Source of the DNA: Candidatus Xiphinematobacter sp. Idaho Grape | Lineage (GTDB): Bacteria; Verrucomicrobiota; Verrucomicrobiia; Chthoniobacterales; Xiphinematobacteraceae | NCBI RefSeq assembly: GCF_001318295.1 | Contig: NZ_CP012665.1 | Span: 124,001-188,000 of the forward strand | DNA: 64,000 nt | Direction: 5' to 3' | Part shown: piece after piece, positions 26,656-34,040 of the stretch | How the letters are laid out: every line of letters starts with the position of its first letter | How positions within the stretch are numbered: position 1 is the stretch's first letter | Translations under genes and position numbers: made by a program | The notes under the pieces: generated by a model | Told to the model about the DNA's origin: nothing | Seen by the model: the letters and a program-made list of their open reading frames with translations, nothing else | Databases searched by the model: none

Positions 26656-27732
26656 CTAGTCGCCAAAGGAGATTTCCGAGGCACGGGCATCTTGAACTAT
26701 CTGGCAATCTGGGGGAACCTGTCGCAGTTTATTAACTGCTTCATTAATAGGTACTTCTGTGATGCAGTCGTCTGCATAACTTACCATCATGCCAAATTTA
26801 TTCTCATGGATAAGTTTAACGGCATGAACCCCAAAACGAGTGCCAAGGATACGGTCCACAGCGGTAGGGGCCCCTCCTCGTTGGAGATGTCCCAAGACAC
26901 AGACACGAGTTTCCTTTCCAGTACGGTTTGCTATTTCGTGTCCCACCACTTCTCCTACTCCACCTAAGCGGTACTCTCCGCCCATGACAGTATGAAGATA
27001 CTGTCCTCCTTGCTTTGGACGAGCTCCCTCAGCGACAACTACCATAGTACTTTTTGCCCCAAACTTATCACGTTGCCTAACTGTCTCTGAGACTCTATCT
27101 AAGTCAAAAGGAATTTCTGGAATTAGGATGACATCTGCTCCCCCAGCCATACCTCCATAAAGAGCAATCCAGCCTGCGTGGCGCCCCATGACCTCTAAAA
27201 CCATGACGCGCCGATGGCTTGTTGCGGTAGTATGGAGGCGATCCATAGCATCCACTACACAAGCAACGGCTGAGTCGAAACCAAATGTAATAGCTGTAGC
27301 TTCCAAGTCATTGTCGATTGTTTTCGGAACACCCACGATAGGCATCCCGTTTTCAAAAAGCTGCAGGCCGGTAGTTAGTGAACCATCGCCGCCAACAATG
27401 ATGAGAGCGTGCAGACCGCAGGTATCAAAAGTTTGGCGAACCTTTTGAATAGTTTCTTGTGGAATGGCAGCTTTATCTCCTGCTCCTATTTTTGCAATGA
27501 AGTGCCCCTTGTTTGTAGTACCAAGGATAGTCCCACCGAGGTGCATTATGCCTGCAGTGGCAGAGCGGTCAAGCGAAAGGAAATTGCCTGGAGGCAGGAG
27601 CCCTTCAAATCCCTCACAGCATCCAAGTACTTCCATCCCATAACGATCTGCAGTGCGAGTGACAGCTCTCACAACTGCATTAAGCCCTGGACAATCTCCG
27701 CCAGTAGTCAGTACACTGATTTTTTTTCTCAT
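26656..27732 (-). CDS. pfkA: 6-phosphofructokinase
   Basis: Phosphorylates fructose 6-phosphate in glycolysis. From ATG 27732 (MRKKISVLTTGGDCPG) the product is 358 residues; an in-frame extension to 27882 is not conserved in the family and overlaps the next gene. The phosphoryl-donor loop reads GGDGS at 114-118, the ATP-type form, while the next loop is PKTIDND at 136-142, with lysine where classic ATP enzymes have glycine. This glycine/lysine mix is known in the actinobacterial-type group that uses ATP. MGRHAGW at 182-188 is also present. I therefore predict ATP use, but pyrophosphate use is not excluded. Confidence 0.9.
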   Translation of the reverse strand: MRKKISVLTTGGDCPGLNAVVRAVTRTADRYGMEVLGCCEGFEGLLPPGNFLSLDRSATAGIMHLGGTILGTTNKGHFIAKIGAGDKAAIPQETIQKVRQTFDTCGLHALIIVGGDGSLTTGLQLFENGMPIVGVPKTIDNDLEATAITFGFDSAVACVVDAMDRLHTTATSHRRVMVLEVMGRHAGWIALYGGMAGGADVILIPEIPFDLDRVSETVRQRDKFGAKSTMVVVAEGARPKQGGQYLHTVMGGEYRLGGVGEVVGHEIANRTGKETRVCVLGHLQRGGAPTAVDRILGTRFGVHAVKLIHENKFGMMVSYADDCITEVPINEAVNKLRQVPPDCQIVQDARASEISFGD

Positions 27733-27814
27733 CTGGTTATGAATGTTATCTCCATCTCTTTTCCTAAAGAGGACACTAGTCTTTTGTTTCTCCCCGAGTG
27801 AGTAGGAAGGGAGT

Positions 27815-28741
27815 TTAGAGAAAATCGTGCTCTCTAATAGGACGCCCTTGGGTAATCCACTCATCATATAGCCTCCATCCATACCGTAGAGATGCCAAGC
27901 CGTCGTTCAAGCAATTAGTAGATCCCAATAGAACAATGAGAAGGCGCCGAGGGGTAATAATGATCCATCTGTTCTCGTGTTGCGTAGCAATGGGGAGATG
28001 ATCAGTTGTTAGTACAAGGTGGCTCCTGTTTATTTCACCACAGCAGTTGTTGCCTTTTACCCCATCGATGCGTTTGTAACCAAGAAATTGGTTGGTATTT
28101 TGGAGATAGAAAGAATGCACCACTCCCTTTCGGACAATTTGAATAGTCCGTGAGGCCTGGCTGGCATAGAAACGGAACTGGGCTTTCTGGTGAGCATAAT
28201 GAGTCAAGCGGGCAATATCCACTGCTGTTGAATAGGGTTGTTGCTTTTTTGTAAAACATGACCCACCTGGATTAAGAAAGTGGGTATGGTGCATTCCTAA
28301 ACGGTGTGCTAGCATGTTCATTTGTGAGACAAAGTTTCTTTCTGCAGAAAGACCCCTAGGATTATGAACGCGCGAGCCGATATATTCGGCCAGTGTGTGA
28401 GCTGCCCCACAGTCTGAGGAGAGAATTATGCAGTAAATCAGGTCTCGCAGAGAAATTTTATCTCCGGGTCTCAGGATAGAATTGAAATCTGAACCGTTTG
28501 GAACCACAGCTAGGGTGGAGAGGGGGGTCCTGTTAACGTAGATCCAGTCGAGTGCTACCGCTACAGTGGCAATAGTCGCTAGGGTGCCGATGTGGAGTCT
28601 GTGCTCGATGCTTCTGCCGTGCAAAATGTAGCCAGTTTGATTATCTGCTATGAGCACACTTTCCTGAGCTGGTATGACGGTAGCAAGGAGTGAGGCGATG
28701 GATCCCCAACTAAAAAAGGAGCTGTATTGATGAAACTGCAT
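27815..28741 (-). CDS. S11-family D-alanyl-D-alanine carboxypeptidase homologue lacking the catalytic motifs
   Basis: The 308-residue protein follows the PBP5-like family over its whole length: a signal-like hydrophobic N-terminus (about 8-24), VLIADNQTGYILHGR (family: DAKTGRVLYAR), LRPGDKISLRDLI, LAHRLGMHHTHFLNPGG. Yet the three active-site motifs are altered. The SxxK site reads GTLA (52-55), SxN reads SDC (109-111) and KTG reads KGN (229-231). Without the serine and lysine it should not hydrolyse or bind penicillin in the usual way. The frame is uninterrupted over 300 codons, so either it was kept for a structural role or inactivation is recent. It lies on the same strand as pfkA and ribF. 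Confidence 0.75.
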   Translation of the reverse strand: MQFHQYSSFFSWGSIASLLATVIPAQESVLIADNQTGYILHGRSIEHRLHIGTLATIATVAVALDWIYVNRTPLSTLAVVPNGSDFNSILRPGDKISLRDLIYCIILSSDCGAAHTLAEYIGSRVHNPRGLSAERNFVSQMNMLAHRLGMHHTHFLNPGGSCFTKKQQPYSTAVDIARLTHYAHQKAQFRFYASQASRTIQIVRKGVVHSFYLQNTNQFLGYKRIDGVKGNNCCGEINRSHLVLTTDHLPIATQHENRWIIITPRRLLIVLLGSTNCLNDGLASLRYGWRLYDEWITQGRPIREHDFL

Positions 28742-28830: not shown

Positions 28831-29754
28831 CTACTTTTTAAGTAAGGCTCTAGCGAGGTGGATGTCTTTTTCAATCTGCGTACGCAGCAATTGAAGGCTG
28901 TGGAATTTGTGCTCTTTACGGAGAAAGACCTCAAAGCATACTTTGGCATCTTTTCCATACAAACTGCCAGAATAATCTAAGAGATGAACCTCTAAAGTCC
29001 GCTGAGAGGCAGGAGGGAAAGTTGGGCGGGTGCCAATGTTGGTTACACCTGAAAAAATAGCGCCGTCAATTTGGGTGTGGACCGCATACACACCATCTGG
29101 AGGGAAAAGTTCGTTATGCGTGGCCAGATTTGCAGTTGGAAACCCTATGGAGCGCCCCCTCCCTTCTCCTCTTACAACTGTCCCTAAAATGGTGTATTTA
29201 CGACCAAGAAATTTAGCAGCAGAGTGAAGATCTCCGGATTGAATAAAGTCTCGAATGCGAGTGCTGCTGATAGTCTCACCACCCATTTCCACGGCGCCAA
29301 TTTCTGTGACTCGAAATCCAAACTTTGTACTAAGTCGCCGGAGGAGAGGGATGTTCCCTTCGCGTCTTCTCCCAAAAGACCAGTTATATCCAACACAAAT
29401 TTCTCGGAGGAAGGGGGCGTGCAGACTAAGAAGATAAATAAACTCAGCAGCAGGGAGTGCGGCAAGTGCTGCATTGAAGGACAAGAGAAGAATGTGCTCT
29501 GCGCCAAGTTGCTGTATCAGACGAATTTTATGGGCTGTAGAGGTAAGGAGACGTGGAGCAGAAGCAGGGCGAAGGAATTGAGCGGGATGTGGATCAAAAG
29601 TTAAAATGACGCAAGAGGCGTCTCTGCAGCAGGCGTTTTCTAGAGCGCGGCGGATAAGGGTTTGGTGGCCAAGATGAACTCCATCGAACACTCCAGCAGC
29701 AACTACAAGAGGAGCTGCAATGGTCTTTAGCTCTGAGATGGAGCGAAAGATCAT
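28831..29754 (-). CDS. ribF: Bifunctional riboflavin kinase / FAD synthetase
   Basis: Makes FMN and FAD from riboflavin. The 307-residue protein has an N-terminal nucleotidyltransferase with GVFDGVHLGHQTL and FDPHPAQFL, then SSTRIRDFIQSGDL, and a C-terminal kinase domain with GRSIGFPTANL and the ATG-like DGVYAVHT segment ending near residue 300. The start ATG at 29754 overlaps the truB stop by four bases, giving translational coupling. It is the last gene of the nusA-infB-rbfA-nrnA-truB-ribF cluster. Confidence 0.95.
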   Translation of the reverse strand: MIFRSISELKTIAAPLVVAAGVFDGVHLGHQTLIRRALENACCRDASCVILTFDPHPAQFLRPASAPRLLTSTAHKIRLIQQLGAEHILLLSFNAALAALPAAEFIYLLSLHAPFLREICVGYNWSFGRRREGNIPLLRRLSTKFGFRVTEIGAVEMGGETISSTRIRDFIQSGDLHSAAKFLGRKYTILGTVVRGEGRGRSIGFPTANLATHNELFPPDGVYAVHTQIDGAIFSGVTNIGTRPTFPPASQRTLEVHLLDYSGSLYGKDAKVCFEVFLRKEHKFHSLQLLRTQIEKDIHLARALLKK

Positions 29755-30473
29755 GCGCTACGTAGCCTAGAAACAACTGGAAGGCTAAGAACACGCCTCT
29801 TTAGGAGGTCCCAGGAGGAATTTTTAACCTCTTCGACAGTAGTAGCTCCATGGAGGGAAAATTTCCCAGATCGAGTCCGGCGCAGAGACTGGAGGTATGC
29901 ACCACAGCCAAGGATCATGCCGATATCGTGAGCATAAGTACGCACATAGAACCCCTTGCTGCATTCCACACAAAAATCTACCTCTGGTAGTCGAACCGAC
30001 AGAATTTCGAAAGCATGTACATGGACAAAGCGGGGCGTCCTTTCGACATTTTTCCCCTCACGGGCAAGTCTGTAGAGAGGAACTCCATTCCTTTTAATTG
30101 CTGAGACCATAGGTGGTATTTGATAAAAATCTCCAGTGAGTTGGCAGAATGCTTTTTCGATTTGTAGAGCAGAAAAATGCGGTACAGAACGCCTCTCGAG
30201 TATCGCCCCTTCTGCATCCTGGCTATCGGTAATGCTTCCTAATCGCAAGGTCCCTATATATTCCTTATCCTCACTCATAAGAAGATCTTGAATTTTGGTC
30301 CCCTTGCCTATTGTCACAAGGAGCAGACCAGTGGCCAGAGGATCAAGTGTGCCGCAGTGGCCGACCTTTTTTGTAGAAAAAGCGCGACGGACAATAGCTA
30401 CGACATCATGTGAAGTCATTCCGGAAGCTTTGTCTACAGGCAGTATGCCATCAAGTGAGACCCTGGATTTCAT
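29751..30473 (-). CDS. truB: tRNA pseudouridine(55) synthase TruB
   Basis: Makes pseudouridine 55 in the T-loop of tRNAs. From ATG 30473 the product is 240 residues, with DGILPVDKASGMTSHDVV at the start and the catalytic aspartate D44 in GHCGTLDPLATGLL. QIPPMVSAIKRNGVPLY and YVRTYAHDIG follow. The frame stays open upstream to 30668 but inside nrnA, and the family starts at the DGILPVDKP-type block, so ATG 30473 is chosen. It overlaps the end of nrnA by 23 bp. The C-terminal PUA-type extension of longer TruBs is absent or short. Confidence 0.92.
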   Translation of the reverse strand: MKSRVSLDGILPVDKASGMTSHDVVAIVRRAFSTKKVGHCGTLDPLATGLLLVTIGKGTKIQDLLMSEDKEYIGTLRLGSITDSQDAEGAILERRSVPHFSALQIEKAFCQLTGDFYQIPPMVSAIKRNGVPLYRLAREGKNVERTPRFVHVHAFEILSVRLPEVDFCVECSKGFYVRTYAHDIGMILGCGAYLQSLRRTRSGKFSLHGATTVEEVKNSSWDLLKRRVLSLPVVSRLRSA

Positions 30474-31461
30474 GGTAGGTAGCAGTAAGAAATTTTTCTC
30501 GAATAGAGGACAGAGAACCATGAGTGCACGCTCCTGAGGCAAACGGGTGACCCCCACCACCAAACCGCATGCAGATTTTGCACACATCAATGCGTGCATC
30601 TTTTGATCGGGCACTAATGCGTACTCTGACACCAGGTAGTTCTTCAAAGAAGAGAGCCACCATAACATCTTCTACGGAGCGTAAATGGTCAATGATGCCC
30701 TCATTGTCTTCTGGGAAAATCTGAAGATGTTCAAGGTCAGAAAGAGAGAGAGAAAAGTGAGCAATGGTCCCGTTACAGGAAAATTTGGTGTTATTAAGGG
30801 CATGCTGAAGAAGACGAAAACAGCGCCGGGGTTGGTTGTGATACATTGCCAGAGAGAGCTTTGTAACTTGGACTCCTGAACGCACGAGATATGCGGCGGA
30901 TTCAAAAGTGTGTTGAGAAGTTCCTGTATACTGAAAGGAACCAGTGTCTGTGGCGATAGCAGCATAAAGATTAGTAGAAATTTCTGGGGTAAAATCCGCT
31001 TCCGCATAGCGGAAGAGGTCAAAAAGAATCTGTCCAGTAGCCGGAACAGAAGGATCTACATAGTTGAGATCCCCATAACGTTGGTTGCTGATATGATGGT
31101 CAATATTGATCAGGATACCAGCGGATTTGATAGCTGTAAGTACCCTTCCCAATCTACCACGAGTAGGACTGTCAAGAACGATTACTCCGTCGAAAGAATG
31201 CTTGTCCGTAGGAGGTATAGAAACGTAGGAGTGAAAGGGGAGATAGTGAAACCGACTCGGTACCCCATCTTCATTCCAAGTAGTTACTTTCTTTCCGAGA
31301 CTGCGAAGCCAGAGGGCGGAGGCAATAGCAGAGCCTAAGGCGTCTCCATCTGGTCTTAGGTGACTTGTTACTAAGATATTTCTAGCCCAGTGGAGAGCGG
31401 ATAGAATCTGGTTAAAGCAGACATTGGCTGGTATTGGAGAATTAGACAGTGCTGAACTCAT
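30451..31461 (-). CDS. nrnA: DHH/DHHA1 phosphoesterase, NrnA type (oligoribonuclease / pAp phosphatase)
   Basis: NrnA-type enzymes clear short oligoribonucleotides and 3'-phosphoadenosine 5'-phosphate. The 336-residue protein has metal-binding SHLRPDGDALGS, VLDSPTRGRLG and NIDHHISNQRYGD motifs, an ATDTGSFQYTGT block, and the DHHA1 domain with RFGGGGHPFASGA. All metal ligands appear present. Its position between rbfA and truB is common in many bacteria. rbfA ends its coding region just upstream (31468), six bases before. Confidence 0.92.
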   Translation of the reverse strand: MSSALSNSPIPANVCFNQILSALHWARNILVTSHLRPDGDALGSAIASALWLRSLGKKVTTWNEDGVPSRFHYLPFHSYVSIPPTDKHSFDGVIVLDSPTRGRLGRVLTAIKSAGILINIDHHISNQRYGDLNYVDPSVPATGQILFDLFRYAEADFTPEISTNLYAAIATDTGSFQYTGTSQHTFESAAYLVRSGVQVTKLSLAMYHNQPRRCFRLLQHALNNTKFSCNGTIAHFSLSLSDLEHLQIFPEDNEGIIDHLRSVEDVMVALFFEELPGVRVRISARSKDARIDVCKICMRFGGGGHPFASGACTHGSLSSIREKFLTATYHEIQGLT

Positions 31462-31919: not shown

Positions 31920-34040
31920 TTATTCTAGAAATTGCTGCGTTTTTTCTAAAAAATAGCACTCAATAGTATCTTCCAACGAATATTCGGAGAAGTCACCCAG
32001 CTTAACACCGCATTCAAGTCCTATCCTAACCTCTTTGACGTCGTCTTGAAAACGGCGCAGTGTAGCGATACTGCCATCATAGATAGGCTGACCCTTCCGC
32101 AGGATTCGCGCCCGTGCAGTACGAATAATACGGCCATCTGTAATTACACAGCCCGCTACTTTACCTCTGGAGAGTTCAAAGACCTGCCTTACCTTGGCAT
32201 GACCGATAACAGTTTCGCGTAACTGCGGGTCAAGCATTCCAACCATTGCCTCCTTAATCTGGTCGATAAGCTCGTAGATAATGCTAAAGAGCTTGATTTG
32301 TATACCTTCGCGTTTGGCGATACCGGAAGCACTGTTCTCTACCTTGGTGCCGAAACCTATAATAATTGCATTGGAGGCACCGGCCAAAAGTACGTCCGAT
32401 TCGGAAATCGGACCTACGCCAGCGTGGATTAGTTCCACGGCAATCTTTTGACTAGGTATCTCCCTTAAAGAGGCAATAATGGCCTCCATAGAACCCTGTA
32501 CATCTGCCTTTAAAACGACTTGAAGGGATTTTTTCTGGTCGCCTGCAAGGCTTTGAAATAGGTTTTCCAGCGTAGCACGCTGTGGAACAGCAAGCTTATT
32601 GGTTCGGACGGTCTCTAACTTTTCTTTGCTAAAGGCCTTGGCAGAGCGCTCTGAATCCACGACGATCAGCTCATCGCCTGCGCTAGGAAGTCCACTAAGG
32701 CCAAAAATTTTAACAGGGGTAGACGGGCCAGCTTCTCGGATGGGCTTGGCGTCGTCATTAATAAGCTGTCTAAGCTTACCCCAGTAGTTTCCACAAACAA
32801 AGGGCTGTCCAATTTTAATTATTCCCGCACGCACAATGAGTGTAGCGGTGGGACCACGGCCTGGCTCAAGTTGAGCTTCAATGACGGTACAACGTGCTGG
32901 GGCACGTATATTAGCCTTAAGCTCAAGAATTTCTGCTTGTAAGCACATCATTTCTAGGAGCTCATTGATGCCAGTACCCTGAGTGGCGCTTACTGAGACA
33001 CAAATGGTGTTTCCACCCCAGTCTTCTGGGGTGAAACCCTGCCCTTGCAGCTGTTGTTTAACTCGATCAATATTAGCGGCGGGTAAGTCCACCTTACTAA
33101 TAGCTACAATGACAGTAACTCCAGCTGCTCTAGCGTGACTGATGGCCTCAATGGTTTGCGGCATCAGACCATCATCGGCAGCCACGACAAGGACCACGAT
33201 ATCCGTGATATTAGCTCCACGCATGCGCATGGCAGTAAAGGCAGCGTGGCCTGGAGTATCAAGGAAGGTGATGCGGTGACCATCGCGCTCGATACTGTAT
33301 GCACCAATATGCTGAGTAATTCCACCGACTTCCCCAGCAGCGACCTTCGTCTTGCGAATAGCATCGAGCAAAGAGGTTTTTCCATGGTCTACATGCCCCA
33401 TAAAGGTGATAATGGGAGCCCTAGGACGGAGTTCCTCGGAGGCTCTGTCGGTAAAAAAGATAGGAGGTGTCAGGACAGAGTAGGGGACCGCCTTACGGTG
33501 TCCCTCTCCAGCCTTGCGTTTCTCCCGCTCAAGGTGAAAGCCGTGTTTTTTGCAAAGTTTAGATGCTATGTCTGGTTCAACGGTTTGATTGATAGCAGCG
33601 AAGATATTTAGCTTCATCAGATCATGGATGATCTGGAACGGCTTGATGCCAAGTTTTTCAGCAAGTTCTCTGACGATAATTGGCGGCTTAATATGAAGGA
33701 CCTTGGAAGCAGGAAAATTCCCTTCAGCCGGAGTACCTTCTTCTTCCACGTGAGAAGGGGATATTTTTGATTCTTGGGAAGCAGCGGAAGTTCTAGCAGT
33801 AATTGGAGCCAGCGGTCTGAGCTTAGAAACCTTCTCTCTCTCTGCATTCTTAGTATCTTTCCTCTCGGGTACAATCAGGGAAAGGGGCTCCGTTGCTTTG
33901 CCAGATGGGGCAACAGGACTATCTGTTTTCGGCCGAACGGGTGCGGCGGTGTGCTCTGCCTCAGAGCAAACTGCCCTGTGCCCTCCCCTCCCAGTAGGAG
34001 TACCACCCTCTCCCTTTCTGCTATTAAGTCGTGTGGCCAT
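31920..34040 (-). CDS. infB: Translation initiation factor IF-2
   Basis: GTPase that brings initiator tRNA to the ribosome. At 706 residues it is on the short side because the variable N-terminal region is trimmed to about 115 residues. A single IF2_N domain (about 118-170) precedes the G domain with GHVDHGKT at 215-222, DTPGHAAF and SKVDL. Domains II-IV follow to the end, including the fMet-tRNA-binding C2 part. GAGGTG ten to eleven bases before the ATG is a fair ribosome-binding site, one of the few in this window. nusA lies upstream. Confidence 0.97.

Follow-up and report, generated by a model that had tools for sequence, protein, structure and literature searches.

Introduction

The degenerate LytM factors EnvC and NlpD have peptidoglycan-hydrolase folds without catalysis and act on other enzymes. 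Among the S11 peptidases, Escherichia coli PBP7 reaches midcell independently of its activity, which makes a non-catalytic role for the S11 fold plausible; in the same protein, S67A was found to abolish penicillin binding, and the toxicity of K70A matched that of the wild type (PMC11586513). A catalytically dead S11 protein was not found described in the open-access literature searched, which does not prove that none is known. A gene that has lost its activity is expected to disappear from a reduced endosymbiont genome. Our study concerns a gene of the S11 family, common enzymes that trim the cell wall, in Candidatus Xiphinematobacter, a bacterium living in nematodes; in this gene the active site appears to have been lost first, followed by selection in one species and by disintegration in its sister, and this dated comparison lets one ask what role a penicillin-binding-type fold can have once catalysis is gone.

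Genomic context and gene family

The genome of Candidatus Xiphinematobacter sp. Idaho Grape is a single contig of 915,884 bp, and the window, meaning the whole stretch of 64,000 nucleotides that was analysed, covers its bases 124001-188000. The gene of interest, its export-signal-like segment and its two neighbours are placed in the window as follows.

28831..29754, (-): ribF, upstream neighbour of the S11 gene
27815..28741, (-): S11 (DacA-like) homologue of 308 aa in an uninterrupted frame, predicted to be catalytically dead
28667..28741, (-): N-terminal hydrophobic segment of the S11 homologue, MQFHQYSSFFSWGSIASLLATVIPAQ, export-signal-like as judged by eye, with no Lys or Arg ahead of the hydrophobic stretch
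26656..27729, (-): pfk (6-phosphofructokinase), downstream neighbour; start placed at 27729 by comparison with the sister species, the called ORF extending to 27882

Membership of the Peptidase_S11 family was established by homology, with residues 27-229 matching PF00768 at 7.2e-22 and 78.5 bits (cut-off 27.6), and the alignment of the protein with about 130 orthologues runs over its full length. This bears out two observations of a first-pass annotation made from the sequence alone, namely a whole-length likeness to D-Ala-D-Ala carboxypeptidases and a 308-codon uninterrupted frame. The solved relatives matched best by sequence were Bacillus subtilis DacB (3mfd) and the Streptomyces K15 DD-transpeptidase (1skf). 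A single-sequence AlphaFold model of the protein had a mean pLDDT of 34, too low to use.

The gene order ribF-S11-pfk is common to the window, to the sister species (genome G003, 917,278 bp) and to a 2.5-Mb genome of the same GTDB genus (G001), and in the latter two it extends to truB-ribF-S11-pfk. Two gene calls in the window were seen to overlap others. The called pfk ORF runs into the end of the S11 gene (27729-27882), the start in the sister species being the equivalent of 27729 (MRKKISVLTTGG), and this extension is probably spurious. The called DHH-family and truB ORFs, which lie on one strand, have about 218 bases in common (30451-30668); the TruB domain starts at residue 94 of the called truB ORF, the true start of which probably lies further in. 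A promoter and terminator scan gave nothing beyond chance.

Elsewhere in the genome there is a second S11 protein with intact motifs (STQK, SAN and KTG), which was found in all four genomes of the genus, and the window genome and that of the sister species each encode two intact transpeptidase-domain proteins; cell-wall synthesis itself is therefore present. A third PF00905 match in the window genome, outside the window (G000:C1:521582-521836), is a partial domain with TAG and TAA stops that reads as the remnant of another lost penicillin-binding protein, and no such third match was found in the sister genome.

Active-site motifs

The positions equivalent to the three catalytic motifs, and to a further conserved arginine, are listed below.

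28574..28585, (-): SxxK site, codons 53-56, T-L-A-T (ACC CTA GCG ACT); Ser nucleophile and Lys both replaced by Thr
28409..28417, (-): SxN site, codons 109-111, S-D-C; Ser109 kept, Asn replaced by Cys
28040..28057, (-): KTG site, codons 229-234, K-G-N-N-C-C; Lys229 kept, Thr lost, short insertion
27911..27913, (-): codon 277, Cys; Arg in nearly all orthologues, Gly in G001, Cys in G003 and G199

None of the SxxK, SxN and KTG motifs of an active DD-peptidase is thus present. All three had been reported as altered by the first-pass annotation, which read them as GTLA, SDC and KGN; SDC is right and the KTG site reads K-GN, but GTLA is off by one residue, the true site being T53-L-A-T56. That annotation would have given up its reading had a correct alignment brought back the serine and lysine, and alignment with the solved relatives and about 130 orthologues restores neither. 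The decisive change is the combined loss of Ser and Lys. SDC is not decisive alone and would be no sign of inactivity, because the solved K15 enzyme (1skf) naturally reads SGC at this site.

The KTG segment contains a net insertion and its alignment is locally ambiguous, so that the exact placement of this motif is uncertain. It is here that an explanation by sequencing error, assembly error or misalignment, masking motifs that are in fact intact, finds its foothold. We consider this explanation scarcely credible, as the SxxK site aligns without gaps in the context HIG-TLAT-I, T55A, K56T, T234C and R277C were found independently in the sister genome, and the published genome (CP012665) was sequenced at about 1,290-fold coverage (PMC4607532).

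The retention of Ser109 and Lys229, and the natural occurrence of SxC in the K15 enzyme, would suit an enzyme that is still active through Thr53 as nucleophile or through an altered mechanism, and Thr does serve as nucleophile in other peptidase families. The PBP7 mutants speak on both sides: the undiminished toxicity of K70A, which changes the SxxK lysine, means that loss of Lys alone is no proof of inactivity, yet S67A alone abolished penicillin binding (PMC11586513). In the window protein, however, the loss takes in Ser, Lys, the KTG Thr and the conserved Arg alike, and in G001 the two SxxK positions are occupied by Asp and Gln, which leaves no alternative catalytic set common to the genus. 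Continued activity was accordingly judged very improbable.

Comparison across the order

A strong match to the S11 protein was found in 187 of the 213 genomes searched, and the orthologue set comprised 131 proteins from 131 genomes of the order. The eight residues S, K, S, N, K, T, G and R are all intact in 122 of these; three differ only in having SxG, and four from one small-genome genus are partly changed with SxxK intact. Both Ser and Lys are lost in only two, the window protein and that of G001, which has an intact frame and reads D-L-T-Q, S-D-R and K-A-G, with Arg replaced by Gly.

Conserved positions were defined as those that 95 % or more of the other orthologues keep, giving seven in the active site and 51 elsewhere. 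The window protein has lost four of the seven but only five of the 51 (Fisher p = 0.008), leaving 46 of the conserved positions outside the active site intact; for G001 the corresponding losses are 4/7 and 4/51 (p = 0.005). In the remaining orthologues, the number of conserved positions lost has a median of 1 and a maximum of 7. The active site has therefore been dismantled selectively in these two proteins, and not by uniform decay, and both show the pattern of a pseudoenzyme, in which catalytic residues are lost and other conserved positions are kept.

Phylogenetic inference placed the window, G003 and G001 sequences in one clade with a support of 0.996, or 0.98 when the active-site columns were removed. 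One catalytic loss with later drift and two separate losses, in G001 and in Xiphinematobacter, cannot be told apart from these sequences, because Ser53 is still present in G003 and the residues that took over in G001 are not those of the other two. G002 yielded no S11 orthologue, but this absence is uninformative in a genome that is 73 % complete, in which truB sits at the edge of a contig and ribF and pfk were also not found. A scan of genome contigs gave one distant match only.

Partly degraded motifs were also observed in a different family of the order, in the S11 orthologues of four genomes of a single genus of 1.6-2.1 Mb (G049, G196, G198 and G199; loci L029, L096, L097 and L098). Three have SDS and KTA, and G199 has SDD, KMG and the Arg-to-Cys change, with SxxK intact in all four; G027, of the same genus, has fully canonical motifs. 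These may possibly show the same process less far advanced. Separately, one search put an in-frame TAG within its alignment to the orthologue of G005 (L050), whose motifs are intact; the order-wide search with another query showed none.

Decay of the copy in the sister species

At the syntenic locus of the sister species, the S11 gene has about 18 indels, a total that varies with the alignment; 12 are frameshifting, and a 103-bp deletion is included. The start codon is lost and there is an in-frame TGA. As the frame in the window matches that of functional orthologues, the indels were assigned to the branch of the sister species and none to that of the window. With a broken frame and near-neutral evolution (omega 0.67-0.82, the interval reaching 1), this copy is a pseudogene, and the gene is therefore dispensable in the genus.

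The window protein and the remnant have T55A, K56T, T234C, G241H and R277C in common. They differ in that the remnant has S53 intact and reads Tyr (TAT) at codon 111, against Cys (TGT) in the window. The sharing of K56T, T55A, T234C and R277C shows that catalysis was lost in the common ancestor, before the two Xiphinematobacter species split.

Selection after the loss of catalytic residues

Between the window and sister copies, 55, 56 and 87 of 255 sites differ at the first, second and third codon positions (p = 0.007 against equality), and at least one of the two branches was therefore not neutral. The two branches were separated using a two-branch codon model, in which the prior for the ancestor was taken from the other orthologues with the window and sister sequences masked. 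Assuming equal branch times, omega was 0.25 for the window and 0.82 for the sister, and omega (window) = 1 was rejected (LRT 25). When the sister/window rate ratio was set to 1.55, as taken from five neighbouring genes (87 versus 56 lineage-specific changes), omega was 0.31 for the window (about 0.15-0.5), with a value of 1 again rejected (LRT 16.6, p = 5e-5), and 0.67 for the sister (about 0.5-1.0). For the sister, omega = 1 was not rejected at 5 % under either assumption, and dropping the active-site segments left the picture for both omegas unchanged. How the synonymous changes divide between the two branches can be identified only under a rate assumption, and with rates free omega (window) = 1 was only about 2 log units worse; the signal of purifying selection after catalytic loss thus holds at rate ratios of 1-1.55 and is weak with rates fully free. 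A free-rate codon model on 12 taxa was discarded, its synonymous sites being saturated and GC differing between the taxa (background omega 0.018, stem 5.1).

The amino-acid branch of the window has a length of 0.16 and that of the sister one of 0.51, and unambiguous lineage-specific changes in S11 numbered 6 versus 29, set against 56 versus 87 in the five neighbouring genes (p = 0.017). The neighbouring proteins themselves have changed more in the sister species (p = 0.012), unevenly by gene, with the DHH protein reversed and 31920-34040 showing 43 changes in the sister versus 20 in the window.

A neutral window branch would be expected to have accumulated about eight frameshifts, and none was seen (P0 = 4e-4); about three nonsense hits would be expected, again with none seen (P0 about 0.05). 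It was earlier argued that the open frame by itself indicates selection. Since only about three nonsense hits are expected on a neutral branch, that argument alone is weak, and most of the weight is carried by the sister's frameshifts; through this comparison the argument is good for most of the history of the lineage and is not supported for today. A dN/dS near 1, named beforehand as grounds for rejection, was not what was found. Under the stated assumptions, the window lineage is shown to have been under purifying selection over most of the period following the split, with the sister copy near neutral. Averaged over its branch, the window copy has neither the broken frame nor the neutral evolution of a pseudogene.

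The main rival to a selected pseudoenzyme is slow terminal decay, by which catalysis was lost in the ancestor of the genus, constraint has been relaxing, and the window copy lags behind its sister while already functionless. We regard this as a possibility to be taken seriously, if on balance a doubtful one. The wrecked sister copy fits it, as does the pairwise dN/dS between window and sister, which at 0.37 compares with 0.04-0.15 in the neighbouring genes; S11 evolves faster than these. The bacterium also belongs to a reduced endosymbiont lineage, and its genome has a stop-bearing transpeptidase remnant. Moreover, omega (window) is an average over the whole branch, and the frameshift and nonsense counts allow up to about the last 28 % of that branch to have been neutral, so that a release from selection in this period would be traceless. 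However, the loss of catalysis predates the split, and yet omega in the window lineage has remained at about 0.25-0.31 without a frameshift; the conserved residues outside the active site are largely intact, and in G001, whose genome is 2.5 Mb, losses are likewise biased towards the active site and the frame is intact.

Discussion

On balance, we favour the reading that the window gene encodes a non-catalytic S11 pseudoenzyme, selected after the loss of catalysis and acting through its surface as a partner in the envelope, while being dispensable in the genus. The DD-peptidase active site was dismantled before the two Xiphinematobacter species split; the window lineage would then have retained the frame and most other conserved residues, and the sister copy would have decayed almost neutrally. 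The protein is probably exported and may work by protein-protein contact within the envelope or the cell-wall machinery. It may serve there as a scaffold or as a regulatory partner, next to the other S11 enzyme, whose motifs are intact.

The first-pass annotation had set a pseudoenzyme against an early pseudogene. The pseudoenzyme withstands both the alignment and the omega comparison, and an early pseudogene is rejected over the greater part of the period after the split but may still describe the present day. The accompanying suggestion of a scaffold for peptidoglycan is disfavoured in so far as it would operate via the active site. Binding of stem peptides in the old pocket appears less likely, because the substrate-side residues, the KTG Thr and Arg277 (the latter so regarded by analogy), have gone along with the catalytic ones.

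More tentatively, the pseudopeptidase may be selected genus-wide: it is possible that, ahead of extreme genome reduction, the ancestor of Xiphinematobacter and the 2.5-Mb relative made a non-catalytic envelope protein out of a DD-carboxypeptidase, and that one endosymbiont species has since discarded it.

Compared with known systems, the nearest are the Chthoniobacterales S11 orthologues themselves (for example G041, at 45 % identity, and G104, at about 52 % to the G001 protein), which share the full-length alignment, the presence of one orthologue per genome and the C-terminal region. The catalytic members keep ASLTK, SDN, KTG and the conserved Arg, whereas in the window protein the Ser, Lys, Asn, KTG Thr and Arg are all gone. 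DacB and the K15 DD-transpeptidase are the closest solved relatives by sequence, and K15 is also SxC, but both keep SxxK and KTG, unlike the window protein. PBP7 (PbpG), an S11 endopeptidase of the same family, offers a precedent in its activity-independent localization, although it is itself active. EnvC and NlpD are alike in being hydrolase folds without catalysis, but their fold and family (M23) are unrelated to those of the window protein.
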